DNA of 64,000 nt from Haloarchaeobius salinus (GCF_024464185.1 NZ_JANHAU010000001.1:62001-126000); one strand, 5' to 3'; positions 3,650-28,654 are shown, counted from the stretch's first letter. Program-made: numbers and translations. Notes: generated by a model from the letters alone, not told the origin.

Positions 3650-4594
3650 TCAGTCCGAGGCAACCCGACGCGCCTGTTCCCTGGCCTCCTCGACGCTCTT
3701 GCCGTCCCGGAGCACGGCGTCGACGAACAGCTCGCCGGCCTTGTACGACGAGCGGACCATCGGGCCGGAGGCACAGTAGAGGAACTCGAACTCGTCCTCG
3801 GCGACGTCCCGCCAAGTGTCGAACTCGTCGGGGTGGACGTACCGCTCCACGTCGAGGTGGGTCCGCGACGGCTGGAGGTACTGCCCGAGCGTGACGATGT
3901 CGAGGTCGATCTCGGCCAGGTCCGAGAGGGTCTGCCAGATCTCGTGGTGGTACTCGCCGACGCCGAGCATCAGGCTCGTCTTCGTGTAGATGTCGGACTC
4001 GCGGGCGACCTGCTCCAGCACCGAGAGCGACTGCTCGTAGCCCGCGCGGCGGTCCCGGACCGGCCACTGGAGGCGCTCGACGGTCTCGACGTTGTGCGCG
4101 ATGACGTCCGGCCCGGCGTCGATTATCTTGCGGACGAGGTCGGGTTCGCCCTGGAAGTCGGGGATGAGCACCTCCACCAGAATCCCGGGGTGGCGCTGCT
4201 TTATCTCGCGGATGGTCTCCGCGAAGTGACCAGCGCCCTGGTCGGGGAGGTCGTCGCGGTCGACCGACGTGAGGACGACGTAATCGAGCCCGATCTCGGC
4301 GATGGCCTCGGCGACGTTCGCGGGCTCGTCGGGGTCGAGCGGCTCCATCCCCCCCGTCTCGACGTCGCAGAAGTTACACCCGCGCGAACAGCGGTGGCCC
4401 ATCAGCATGAACGTCGCCGTGCCGCCGTCGCTGCTCCCGTTGCGGCCGCTCCAGCACTCCCCGAGGTTCGGGCAGTTCGCCTCCTCGCAGACGGTGTTGA
4501 GGTCGTGCTCGCGCAGCGTCCGCTTGATGTCGGTGAACTCCCGGCCCGCCGGCGGCCGCATCTTCAGCCAGTCGGGCTTCCGCGAACGGCTCAT
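3650..4594 (-). CDS. lipA: Lipoyl synthase
   Basis: Radical SAM enzyme that inserts two sulfurs into octanoyl-E2 to make the lipoyl cofactor. Both iron-sulfur clusters are visible: the auxiliary cluster motif CEEANCPNLGEC (C36, C41, C47) and the radical SAM motif CSRGCNFC (C69, C73, C76). At 314 residues it has normal family length. I start at the ATG at 4594 (MSRSRKPDW); a T-rich box (CTTTTTC) about 28 bases upstream fits a leaderless transcript, and the longer open frame runs into the divergent MATE gene. It is about 0.5 kb upstream of the dehydrogenase operon whose E2 it would modify. Confidence 0.96.
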   Translation of the reverse strand: MSRSRKPDWLKMRPPAGREFTDIKRTLREHDLNTVCEEANCPNLGECWSGRNGSSDGGTATFMLMGHRCSRGCNFCDVETGGMEPLDPDEPANVAEAIAEIGLDYVVLTSVDRDDLPDQGAGHFAETIREIKQRHPGILVEVLIPDFQGEPDLVRKIIDAGPDVIAHNVETVERLQWPVRDRRAGYEQSLSVLEQVARESDIYTKTSLMLGVGEYHHEIWQTLSDLAEIDLDIVTLGQYLQPSRTHLDVERYVHPDEFDTWRDVAEDEFEFLYCASGPMVRSSYKAGELFVDAVLRDGKSVEEAREQARRVASD

Positions 4595-4748
4595 ACCGAG
4601 AACTCCGGTCCGGGGGCAGAAAAAGCGTCGGGGTTCCGGCGACGGCCGGTGAACCTGACACGGAGATTGCATTCTCTCCCAACAGCCGTCCATCGGTAAT
4701 GGTCGACAGAGTTTTGTGCCAGTCGCGTACCAGTGCAATAACGAGCAG

Positions 4749-24459: not shown

Positions 24460-27400
24460 ATGAATCGGAAACTCCTAGCACTACTGCTCGCCAGTCTGAT
24501 GGTATTCGGCTTTACGACTCCGTACGTTGCGGCCGGAGCACCAGCCGCCCAGCAGGCAGGCACTTCGACAGATATCGCACAGGTAGGCGTCGGCGACGAC
24601 GTCGCAGCAAGCACAGCCGCTGAAGAGACGTCCGCGCCCGAGACCGCGTGGATCCAGCCTGCACTCGAACATCAGTTCGAGCAGCAGGAAGTCACACAGG
24701 TGGTCGTCCGGCTCGGAACGCCGGACCTGAGTCAGTCACTCAGCCGTGAGGCGACCATCGATGGCCTCAAGACCCACGCGGAGCGGACCCAGGAACCGAT
24801 CCTCGACTGGGCCAGCGAACGTGAGAACGTCGCAGTCGAGAACCGGTTCTGGCTCGCCAACGCCGTCGTCCTGACGGTGCGCTCGGGCGGTGACAGCGGC
24901 GTGAACCTCGACGAGATCGCGCGCCTCGACGGTGTCGACGAGCTCCACGCCAACTTCGAAGTTACGTCCCCGGAACCCGTGGACAGCGATGAGGTTCGCA
25001 GCTCCTCCGACCACCCGGCGACATACGGGCTGAACCAGATCAACGCGACCGAGACCTGGGACCAGTTCGGCACCATGGGCGATGGCGCGAAGGTCGCCAT
25101 CCTCGACACCGGTATCGACCCGACCCACCCGGACATCGACCTCTACACCGAGAACGCGTCGGACCCGACCTACCCCGGCGGGTGGGCGGAGTTCGACGGT
25201 GACGGTAACCAGGTCCCGGGTAGCGAGCCCTACGACTCCGACGGTCACGGCACGCACACCTCCGGGACGGCCACCGGTGGCAACGCCAGCGGTGAGTTCA
25301 TCGGCGTCGCCCCCGAGGCCAGCCTGATCCACGGCGGCGTCCTCACGCCCGAGGGCGGTACCTTCGCAGCCATCATCGGTGGCATGGAGTGGGCCGTCGA
25401 GGAGGATGCCGACGTCATGTCGATGAGTCTCGGCTGCACCAACGCACCGTGTTACGAAGCGGGGATGATCGAGCCGACGCTGAACGCAGAGGCCGCGGGG
25501 ACCGTCGTCGTCGCGTCCTCCGGTAACGACGGCGAAGGGATGAGCAGTTCGCCCGGTAACGTCTGGGACGTCGTCGCCGTCGGCGCGTCCAACGAGAACG
25601 CCAACATCGCCAGCTTCTCCAGCGGCATGGAGGTCGACACGGACAGTGCCTGGGGTGACGACGCACCCTCGCACTGGCCCGACACGTACATCGTACCCGA
25701 CGTGTCCGCACCCGGGGTGGACGTGAAGAGCTCCGTCCCCGGCGGTAGCTACGCCGAGTACTCCGGCACGTCCATGTCCTCGCCGCACACCGCGGGCGCG
25801 GTCGCACTGATGCGCTCCGCCTCCGGTGGCGACGCGAGCGTCTCGATGATCAAGGACGCACTCCGTGAGACCGCGTGGAAGCCCGACGGCGAACCGTCCG
25901 GCAACGACACGCGCTACGGTGCGGGTATCATCAACGCCCTCGAGGCGACCGAGCAGGTCGCGCTCGAACAGGGCGTCGAGGGTACCGTCACCGACGCTGA
26001 CGGCAACCCAATCGAGGGTGCCGAGGTCAGCCTCGACGGCGGTGGATCCGGTGCGACCGACGCCGCAGGCAACTACAGCGTCATCGCACAGAACGGCACC
26101 TACGACGTGACCGCGGACTCCTTCGGCTACGAGGCGTCCACAGAGACCGTCACGGTCGACGGCGACTGGGTCACGCAGGACTTCTCGCTGAACGCAGCAC
26201 TCGACGTGGAAGTCCTCGAGGGGCAGCCCGGAGGTATCGAGGGCGGTGAGAACGTCAGCGTGACGGTCAACGCTGCCAACCTCGATTCCTACACCGCCTC
26301 GCTCGCGGACGGGTACAGCGAGGAGAACGCGACGCTGTACGTCAACGGCGACGAGGCCTCCTTCGGCGAGGCCATCGAGTTCGACGAGCCGTACACCGGT
26401 GAAGTCACCGTCACCGTCGAGACGACCGCCGACACGAGCGGCGAACTCGCAATCGAGCACACGTTCGAGGGCATGGGTGACTCCATCGGAGTGACCACCG
26501 GCCCGACGAACGTCTTCGAGGAGTTCACGCAGGTCGGTGTCGTTGACGACGACAGCAACTACGGCGCAGACGTTGCAGACACGCTCGAGGAGTGGCTGCC
26601 GGCACACTACTCCGTGTCGGTCCTCACCTCCGACGAGGCGATCGACAACGTCGACTCGTACGACAGCTTCGTCGTGCAGTACCTCGACTCGGACAACGCC
26701 GAAGCCTTCGCGGAGGCCACGAACGGCTACCAGGCTGGCGTCGTCTACCTCGACCAGTGGGGTACGAGCAGCAACGGTATCGAGGAGCGCTCGAACGCCA
26801 TCGGTGACCCCGCCGAGACCGGTGAAAGCGACTTCAACGATGCTCCGGAGTATGTGAACGTCGCGGACCATCCGATATTCGAGGGTGTCGGTGAGGGACC
26901 GATCACTCTCCACACTGCGACGTTCGCCGACATGACGTACTTCTCTGGGACCGACGCAACGGTGCTTGCCGAGGTCACGGACGGTACCGAACAAGATAGC
27001 GGCGTCGCAGTCGACGAGGACCGCTGGGACGTCCTCGGAGCCACGCTCGGCTACTCGACGTTCGTCGGCCAGGGCGACTACACCGACGACGCGGACCTCA
27101 TCCTGGCCAACATGGTCCAGTTCGCATCCAACCCGCCGGAGCCCGTCGGCACGGTCGACGTCACCGAGACTGAGACCCAGCCCGGCGAGTCCGCCGAGGT
27201 GAGCGTCTGGACCGGTGACATCGACAACGTCTCCGGCTACCAGGCCAAGCTGAACTTCGACCCGAACAAGCTCCAGGTCTCCAGTACCGACGGGCAGGAC
27301 TTCGCTGACCCTGTCGTCAACATCGACAACGAGAACGGTGTTGTCACCCTGGCACAGGCACAGGCGAGCGGTGTCGACGATCCCACGATGGTCGACATCG

Positions 27401-27783
27401 AGTTCGACGTGCTCATGGAGGACTTCAACCAGACGGCTGAAGTCACCTGGAACACGAGCGCGTCGATGGTGACCTACGAGAACGGCACCGCGCCGCTCGT
27501 GGAGTACACGCCCGGTGCGGTCTCCACCGAGGACTGCATGCTCGGTGACGTCAACCAGGACGGCGCAATCACCGTCCAGGACGCGACGCTCACCCAGCAG
27601 TACATCGTCGGTGAGGACCCCGACAACTTCAACCCGAGCTGCGCCGACATGAACGGCGACGGTGAGGTCACTTCCGCTGACGTGACCCTCATCCTCGAGG
27701 AGATCGTCGGCAGCAGCATCTCGGCACCGCAGCCGATGACGGTCTCCGACCTGGTCGACTCGCAGCTTCAGGCTGAAGCCTGA
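24460..27783 (+). CDS. Secreted subtilisin-like protease with cohesin and dockerin domains
   Basis: 1107-residue exported protease. Signal peptide (LLALLLASLMVFGFTTPYVAAGA), inhibitor-like propeptide (about 60-190), S8 catalytic domain (about 207-490) with complete triad D216 (ILDTGID), H263 (DGHGTHTSG), S438 (SGTSMSSPHTAG). Then a carboxypeptidase-regulatory-like beta domain (507-575), a further beta domain, a GATase/ThuA-like segment (about 690-890), a cohesin domain (about 900-1020, GYQAKLNFDPNKLQV) and a type I dockerin with two calcium loops DVNQDGAITVQD (1030-1041) and DMNGDGEVTSAD (1063-1074). No transmembrane or PGF anchor is present, so attachment may be through the dockerin. Codon use here has fewer GC-ending codons than most neighbours. 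Followed by a paralogous anchored cohesin gene. Confidence 0.92.
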   Translation: MNRKLLALLLASLMVFGFTTPYVAAGAPAAQQAGTSTDIAQVGVGDDVAASTAAEETSAPETAWIQPALEHQFEQQEVTQVVVRLGTPDLSQSLSREATIDGLKTHAERTQEPILDWASERENVAVENRFWLANAVVLTVRSGGDSGVNLDEIARLDGVDELHANFEVTSPEPVDSDEVRSSSDHPATYGLNQINATETWDQFGTMGDGAKVAILDTGIDPTHPDIDLYTENASDPTYPGGWAEFDGDGNQVPGSEPYDSDGHGTHTSGTATGGNASGEFIGVAPEASLIHGGVLTPEGGTFAAIIGGMEWAVEEDADVMSMSLGCTNAPCYEAGMIEPTLNAEAAGTVVVASSGNDGEGMSSSPGNVWDVVAVGASNENANIASFSSGMEVDTDSAWGDDAPSHWPDTYIVPDVSAPGVDVKSSVPGGSYAEYSGTSMSSPHTAGAVALMRSASGGDASVSMIKDALRETAWKPDGEPSGNDTRYGAGIINALEATEQVALEQGVEGTVTDADGNPIEGAEVSLDGGGSGATDAAGNYSVIAQNGTYDVTADSFGYEASTETVTVDGDWVTQDFSLNAALDVEVLEGQPGGIEGGENVSVTVNAANLDSYTASLADGYSEENATLYVNGDEASFGEAIEFDEPYTGEVTVTVETTADTSGELAIEHTFEGMGDSIGVTTGPTNVFEEFTQVGVVDDDSNYGADVADTLEEWLPAHYSVSVLTSDEAIDNVDSYDSFVVQYLDSDNAEAFAEATNGYQAGVVYLDQWGTSSNGIEERSNAIGDPAETGESDFNDAPEYVNVADHPIFEGVGEGPITLHTATFADMTYFSGTDATVLAEVTDGTEQDSGVAVDEDRWDVLGATLGYSTFVGQGDYTDDADLILANMVQFASNPPEPVGTVDVTETETQPGESAEVSVWTGDIDNVSGYQAKLNFDPNKLQVSSTDGQDFADPVVNIDNENGVVTLAQAQASGVDDPTMVDIEFDVLMEDFNQTAEVTWNTSASMVTYENGTAPLVEYTPGAVSTEDCMLGDVNQDGAITVQDATLTQQYIVGEDPDNFNPSCADMNGDGEVTSADVTLILEEIVGSSISAPQPMTVSDLVDSQLQAEA

Positions 27784-27821
27784 TCGGGTCACCACACCCT
27801 GTCGCATCGCACGCCAACCGA

Positions 27822-27846
27822 CCTCGCATCCGTGCGAGGCCTTTCG
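27822..27846 (+). terminator. Possible hairpin terminator after the subtilase gene
   Basis: Perfect 7-bp stem CCTCGCA/TGCGAGG around a TCCG loop, followed by CCTTTC, 40 bases after the protease stop. Archaeal terminators need only T-runs, so the role is inferred. Confidence 0.35.
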
Positions 27847-27937
27847 AGACGACGCGACGCGGATTTGCGTACTGCCCGCTCGACGGGCATCCAGGGCGGC
27901 CGGGGACACCCGGTCGCCGATTTCAACCACACGACCC

Positions 27938-28654
27938 ATGACCACGAACCGCCTTCCCGACGGAACGACGCTGCTGCTGGTAGCCCTCTGTCTCGCACTC
28001 GTGGCCGTCCCCATGGCGGCCGCCCAGGAGAGCGCGACGCTCTCGCTGACCGAGACGGAGGTCGAGTCGACAGACGGCACCGCAACGGTAACACTCGCCG
28101 CCGAGGGCTCCGATGTCGCCGGCTATCAGGCGAACGTCTCGTTCGACCCCGACGTCGTCCGGGTCCAGAGCGTCTCCGGCGCGGACTACTCCGACCCGGT
28201 GCAGAACGTGAACAACGAGGACGGCTGGGTGTTCCTCACGCAGTCACAGTCGGACGGGATGGACGACCCCGAGCTCGCGACCATCACCTTCGAGGTGGTC
28301 GGTGACGAGGGCGACCGTTCCACTCTCTCGTTCGTCGAGTCGGATACCCGCATCAACGACGGAGCCGGTGAGCACGTCGACGTCCAGCTCGACAGCGGGA
28401 CCGTCACGGTCGGGAGCGGCGACGTGCAGTCGATGGGCGAGGGGTCCGCCGCGACCGACGGTGGCGGCGAGGACCCGGCCGCCAACGAGAACCAGCAGTC
28501 GGACCCGGACACGGCCGCGAACGATGCCGACAGCGATGGTGACGGCGGCGACGACACGACCGGAGACGGGACCGGCGTCTCGACGCCGATACTGGTCGGC
28601 GGCGCAGCGGCGCTCCTCGCCGGTGGCGTGTTGCTCGGCCGGCGCGCGTCCTGA
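27938..28654 (+). CDS. Membrane-anchored cohesin-domain protein
   Basis: 238 residues: signal peptide ending VPMAAAQ, one cohesin domain (about 32-150), a Ser/Asp/Asn-rich acidic stalk and a C-terminal membrane helix (TPILVGGAAALLAGGVLLG-RRAS). The cohesin is plainly paralogous to the one inside the upstream protease: both share GYQAxxxFDP, VxSxxGxDxxDPV, NExGxVxLxQxQ and GxDDP. It lies 154 bases downstream of the protease on the same strand. Family knowledge says cohesins bind dockerins, so it could hold the protease dockerin at the cell surface; that pairing is inference. Confidence 0.88.
   Translation: MTTNRLPDGTTLLLVALCLALVAVPMAAAQESATLSLTETEVESTDGTATVTLAAEGSDVAGYQANVSFDPDVVRVQSVSGADYSDPVQNVNNEDGWVFLTQSQSDGMDDPELATITFEVVGDEGDRSTLSFVESDTRINDGAGEHVDVQLDSGTVTVGSGDVQSMGEGSAATDGGGEDPAANENQQSDPDTAANDADSDGDGGDDTTGDGTGVSTPILVGGAAALLAGGVLLGRRAS

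Follow-up and report, generated by a model that had tools for sequence, protein, structure and literature searches.

Cohesin and dockerin on a secreted subtilase beside a membrane-anchored cohesin: a possible surface-docking system of haloarchaea

The DNA analyzed here (the window) is a stretch of 64,000 nucleotides (nt) from Haloarchaeobius salinus (GCF_024464185.1 NZ_JANHAU010000001.1:62001-126000). Two adjacent genes on its plus strand encode a secreted S8 protease that ends in a cohesin and a dockerin, and a small membrane-anchored protein with a single cohesin. The pair is probably best explained as a two-gene surface-docking module. This claim rests on the adjacency of the genes and on the class of the cohesins, not on the presence of the domains. 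Beside the domains and their order, we observed conserved adjacency of the two genes, two diverged classes of cohesins and a scaffoldin-like expansion in relatives.

Architecture of the protease and of its neighbor

The features of the two genes are listed below. Pfam matches were judged by the curated cut-offs, which are exceeded by all named domains of the protease.

24460..27783, plus strand: secreted S8 subtilase with C-terminal cohesin and dockerin, 1107 amino acids (aa), ATG start (open reading frame (ORF), Pfam, hydropathy)
25078..25926, plus strand: Peptidase_S8 domain, residues 207-489 (Pfam 1.6e-47; alignment with relatives)
25975..26190, plus strand: CarboxypepD_reg domain (Pfam 1.4e-12)
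26512..27129, plus strand: conserved region of about 200 aa (conservation in relatives)
27151..27468, plus strand: protease-borne cohesin, residues 898-1003 (Pfam Cohesin 2.2e-10; predicted structure)
27541..27693, plus strand: type I dockerin, residues 1028-1078 (Pfam Dockerin_1 7.8e-12)
27547-27582, plus strand: dockerin calcium loop 1, DVNQDGAITVQD
27646-27681, plus strand: dockerin calcium loop 2, DMNGDGEVTSAD
27938..28654, plus strand: small anchored cohesin protein, 238 aa, ATG start, 154 nt downstream of the protease gene
28034..28417, plus strand: cohesin domain of the anchored class (Pfam 7.6e-10, above the cut-off; tree)
28418..28567, plus strand: acidic stalk, rich in Asp, Gly and Ser (translation)
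28574..28651, plus strand: C-terminal membrane helix with the basic end STPILVGGAAALLAGGVLLGRRAS (hydropathy)

The protease starts with a hydrophobic, Sec-type signal peptide, which is followed by a propeptide-like region, the S8 domain, CarboxypepD_reg, the conserved region, the cohesin and the dockerin. The triad motifs DTG, HGTH and GTSMSSPH are intact in the S8 domain, identifying the enzyme as a peptidase of family S8 (subtilase). Both calcium loops of the dockerin are intact in the window as well as in the dockerins of 28/28 relatives. Hydropathy analysis revealed no hydrophobic or membrane segment, and no anchor, at the C-terminus of the protease. Both termini of the small protein are hydrophobic; a signal peptide is followed by the cohesin, the acidic stalk and the membrane helix. 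The two cohesins are 37% identical over 95 aa and have the motifs GYQA, FDP, DPV, QxQ and DDP in common. The original prediction, made from the sequence of the window, had described both architectures and the paralogy of the two cohesins; it is borne out by Pfam, the coordinates of the loops, translation, hydropathy and the alignment.

The structure of the cohesin-dockerin tail of the protease was predicted with a pLDDT (predicted local distance difference test score) of 86. Compared with solved type I cohesins, the model of the cohesin gave Z scores of up to 19.0 (16.9 with 2XDH of Archaeoglobus fulgidus), and Pfam and the model agree on a type I cohesin fold. Alignment by sequence to the solved cohesins yielded partial matches, and no interface residues are claimed. 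In the model about 7 residues link the last cohesin strand to the dockerin. With so short a link the dockerin is unlikely to bind the cohesin of its own chain. The model of the small cohesin, derived from a four-row alignment, had a pLDDT of 37 and was not used.

Two cysteines of the dockerin (27535-27537 and 27640-27642) are either both present or both absent among the dockerins of the 28 relatives, a pattern which suggests that they may form a disulfide clasp. The conserved region at 26512-27129 had no match by sequence in Pfam or in the PDB; it also occurs without the protease, in company with cohesin-dockerin, in another genome (G087, L074:18-1481). An antisense ORF overlapping the protease gene (24736-28080, minus strand, 1114 aa) was taken as a high-GC artefact. 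Anchoring of the small protein through a PGF-CTERM signal was rejected, as TIGR04126 gave no match. Among anchored proteins of relatives the same model scored 38.9 bits in L068, above its cut-off of 24.5, and 20.4 in L074, below it. An archaeosortase A gene is present in the H. salinus genome and in 10/10 genomes tested.

Conservation of the gene pair

Relatives were found with a profile of the cohesin-dockerin tail, which matched 67 of the 392 genomes of the order, and their loci were annotated with domain models built for this analysis. An anchored cohesin was encoded by the next same-strand gene downstream in 33 of the 42 proteins combining S8, cohesin and dockerin, at distances of -65 to 244 nt. 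One genus, designated g6, was set apart in the counts because its clusters hold many copies. With g6 left out, a gene for signal peptide, cohesin and anchor lay directly downstream in 28 of 30 cases, representing 11 genera and five families. As for the two exceptions, the anchored cohesin gene is immediately upstream in one (L212), whereas L196 is an additional copy, its genome also having an intact pair. When the flanks of the 28 loci were compared by homology of the genes within 3.5 kb, they fell into six unconnected contexts, which shows that the pair stays together while the surroundings change. Wide separation of the genes in relatives, which according to the original prediction would have spoken against docking, was thus not found.

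In Halomicrococcus gelatinilyticus the pair is located on a plasmid, and the genes are annotated separately as an S8 peptidase and a cohesin-domain protein. On a Geoglobus contig a gene encoding a propeller-like cohesin-dockerin protein (L089:2294-4060) overlaps an anchored cohesin gene (4057-4614); this locus carries the arrangement into the Archaeoglobales, to which Archaeoglobus fulgidus, with its established cohesin-dockerin binding, also belongs. A scan of genomes with names returned mainly dockerin-only matches, from rumen bacteria.

The arrangement is not restricted to proteases. At 11 loci (L218-L226, L232, L233) the gene for a dockerin protein without a detected cohesin precedes an anchored cohesin gene, with a 4-nt overlap in nine of them. 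All three enzymes of this group that were scanned with Pfam are calcineurin-like phosphoesterases. Judged by these sequences, dockerin phosphoesterase and anchored cohesin may form a second docking pair.

Cohesin classes and the H. salinus genome

In a tree of 95 cohesins the protease-borne and the anchored domains clustered by class across genera, the protease class requiring 5 label changes as compared with about 30 in shuffles.

A search of the whole H. salinus genome, a count that the original prediction had called for, revealed exactly one dockerin, that of the window protease, and three single cohesins above the cut-off. The third cohesin belongs to a protein with signal peptide, cohesin, stalk and helix (L001:1396-2112), which is encoded 189 kb away, adjoins a malate-dehydrogenase-like gene and clusters with the anchored cohesins in the tree. 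With one dockerin and three cohesins in the genome there are three possible sockets: the protease's own cohesin and the two anchored ones. Two weak cohesin matches (L004, L005) were below the cut-off and were rejected; the frame of L004 looks like a DUF58-type protein. A cellulosome, with its multi-cohesin scaffoldin and several dockerin-bearing carbohydrate-active enzymes, was also rejected for this genome, whose sole dockerin is on a protease and whose three cohesins are all single.

Scaffoldin-like proteins in genus g6

Genus g6 has an expanded form of the module, in which dockerin proteases cluster with multi-cohesin proteins. In genome G087 a run of genes for S8-cohesin-dockerin proteins is accompanied by a gene for a 1258-aa protein that has eight cohesins and ends in a PGF-type tail (L074:4565-8341; the PGF-CTERM motif is present although the score is below the cut-off, see above). 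G264 encodes a protein of 2087 aa with 14 cohesins (L214:7162-13425; Pfam 1.4e-83, 14 stretches) and a three-cohesin protein (L215:8619-10490). In G377, where a scaffoldin-like protein with several cohesins is encoded at L216:9729-13571, there are proteins with at least four and with two cohesins. Most of the scaffoldin-like proteins of g6 have PGF-type tails, and their repeats fall in the anchored class of the tree. Large scaffoldins have been said to be lacking in archaea, proteins of anaerobic methanotrophic archaea (ANME) having up to five cohesins (PMC9012536). The g6 proteins with 8 and 14 cohesins contradict that statement, and these multi-cohesin protease clusters are the newest part of the findings.

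Docking model and alternatives

From these observations we infer dockerin-cohesin binding, its calcium dependence, the preferred cohesin, the formation of chains and a nutritional role, as follows. The subtilase would be exported without an anchor of its own and retained by the cell through its dockerin, which would bind, in a calcium-dependent manner, the membrane-anchored cohesin encoded by the next gene; the other anchored cohesin of the genome may also serve as a socket. Given the short (about 7-residue) link between cohesin and dockerin, the protease's own cohesin would most likely take the dockerin of another protease molecule. Short protease chains would thus hang from the anchor and digest protein beside the cell. 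Judging from sequence comparison, these archaea probably keep digestive enzymes attached to the cell surface in a manner similar to bacterial cellulosomes. A non-cellulosomal docking system, as originally proposed, is supported by the adjacency, by the cohesin-free dockerin enzymes and by the expansion in g6. Further support comes from the Geoglobus locus, the type I cohesin fold, the calcium loops conserved in all 28 dockerins and the correlation of dockerin distances with those of the anchored cohesins once the S8 signal was removed (r 0.64, with 0/500 permutations as high), as well as from the precedents of A. fulgidus and C. thermocellum described below.

Several observations weigh against docking. 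The loci are kin by descent, and the adjacency counts do not represent independent events. Co-occurrence of cohesin and dockerin in haloarchaea at the Pfam level is weak (30 genomes as compared with 23 expected, p 0.02). Some dockerins and some anchored cohesins have no partner gene: dockerin-free genomes can encode anchored cohesin-like proteins, and in cohesin-poor genomes subtilases and other enzymes carry dockerins of other types. Support for the branch that splits the cohesin classes is weak (69/89). Besides their correlation with the anchored cohesins, dockerin distances follow those of the protease's own cohesin (r 0.57). The two correlations support co-evolution of the dockerin with both cohesins and do not pick between them.

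The correlation with the protease's own cohesin, to which the dockerin is always joined, would also be expected if the dockerin bound exclusively to cohesins on other molecules of this protease, yielding free oligomers and leaving the anchored cohesin to another ligand; the lack of any other dockerin in the genome points the same way. The same lack would, however, leave the anchored cohesin without a known partner. Moreover, the dockerin phosphoesterases have an anchored-cohesin neighbor although they carry no cohesin, and it is the anchored class that makes up the expanded multi-cohesin proteins of g6. We therefore regard exclusive self-assembly as improbable. It is likewise unlikely that dockerin and cohesin are ordinary surface modules, serving calcium-dependent stability or substrate binding without binding each other, and that the genes are adjacent for shared expression. 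This would agree with the literature, in which haloarchaeal dockerins are read as substrate-binding and cohesins are not mentioned (PMC10963439, PMC13260240), and with the many haloarchaea that have dockerins but no cohesins, or the reverse. It would leave unexplained why the adjacency is kept across six contexts and extends to a second type of enzyme, and why multi-cohesin proteins adjoin dockerin proteases, and the archaeal pair of A. fulgidus does bind.

The paralogy of the two cohesins could suggest that the small gene is a tandem-duplicated piece of the protease cohesin, near it by descent and without a docking role. The divergence looks old, however, with the classes clustering across genera, and the pair persists despite changed flanks. 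The cohesin-free dockerin enzymes, which have an equivalent neighbor, also argue against a mere duplicate. This explanation is largely refuted already, and we consider it very improbable.

There is a wider reading of the two-gene docking module, towards which we incline only slightly: that haloarchaea build cellulosome-like surface complexes in which the cargo is proteases, not cellulases, most lineages having a minimal version with one protease and one anchor, and one genus building large complexes on anchored scaffoldins of 8-14 cohesins.

Comparison with known systems

Precedents are already known from A. fulgidus, from bacterial ScaO-like proteins and from a surface protease of Clostridium thermocellum. 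For A. fulgidus, binding between an archaeal cohesin and dockerin is established (PMC9012536, PMC9705933); the non-cellulosomal pair is credited to Bayer 1999, Haimovitz 2008 and Voronov-Goldman 2011, its structure is PDB 2XDH, and it has been reused as an engineering pair. The window system, whose cohesin model matches 2XDH, is likewise archaeal and non-cellulosomal. It shares with the Geoglobus locus a cohesin-dockerin gene that has an anchored cohesin gene immediately after it, but the Geoglobus cohesin-dockerin protein is not a subtilase, and the sequences are only about 20-30% identical.

ScaO-like scaffoldins of Acetivibrio mesophilus, A. cellulolyticus and Clostridium alkalicellulosi join an S8-peptidase-like domain to a Coh1-Doc1 tail at the C-terminus of the same polypeptide (PMC11557425), as does the window protease with its S8 domain and C-terminal cohesin-dockerin. 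They come from cellulosome producers, and their other domains include FN3 and galactose-oxidase-like ones. Instead of these, the haloarchaeal protein contains CarboxypepD_reg and the region without library match, and it has a dedicated anchored-cohesin neighbor; FN3 and galactose-oxidase domains were absent in the Pfam scan, and it was not assigned to the ScaO-like group. The dockerin of an S8 protease of C. thermocellum (dDoc_0689) prefers the cohesin of a cell-bound scaffoldin (PMC12484212), but that protease is described with two dockerins and no cohesin and works beside a full cellulosome. The multi-cohesin proteins of ANME (Chadwick 2022, PMC9012536) resemble those of g6 in being archaeal. 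They differ in carrying a dockerin, and the common dockerin cargo in ANME is ABC substrate-binding proteins (PMC9012536), whereas the haloarchaeal proteins, with their 8 and 14 cohesins, bear a PGF-type tail and are neighbors of dockerin proteases.

Other dockerin and cohesin proteins of haloarchaea

Archaeal cases had been expected to be few, but both domains proved to be common in haloarchaea. In one genome (G003; e.g. L250, L251, L252, L253, L075) many exported proteins carry dockerins of a distinct FPDVNxLF type, with 31 matches in all, but only two cohesins are above the cut-off, side by side in L075. Large subtilases of 1600-1750 aa with a mid-chain dockerin (L079:2450-7306, L084:2351-7621) were found together with no Pfam cohesin at the threshold used in G106 and G034. 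Other small exported cohesin-like proteins (L012, L014, L015, L018, L021, L023, L028, L030-L032; L008, L011, L020, L025, L029), many of them in dockerin-free genomes, are found repeatedly in two settings, either following a regulator-like gene or adjoining a lipoprotein-like gene. In these proteins the cohesin fold is probably used for something else.

Significance

Most of what is known about docking by cohesin and dockerin comes from the degradation of cellulose. If the docking model is true, archaea living in concentrated brine use the same plug-and-socket logic to keep digestive proteases close to the cell, and the complexes formed on scaffoldins of 8-14 cohesins would be an archaeal, proteolytic counterpart of the cellulosome. 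Salt-stable cohesin-dockerin pairs would become available, and the role of archaeal dockerins would be directly testable.

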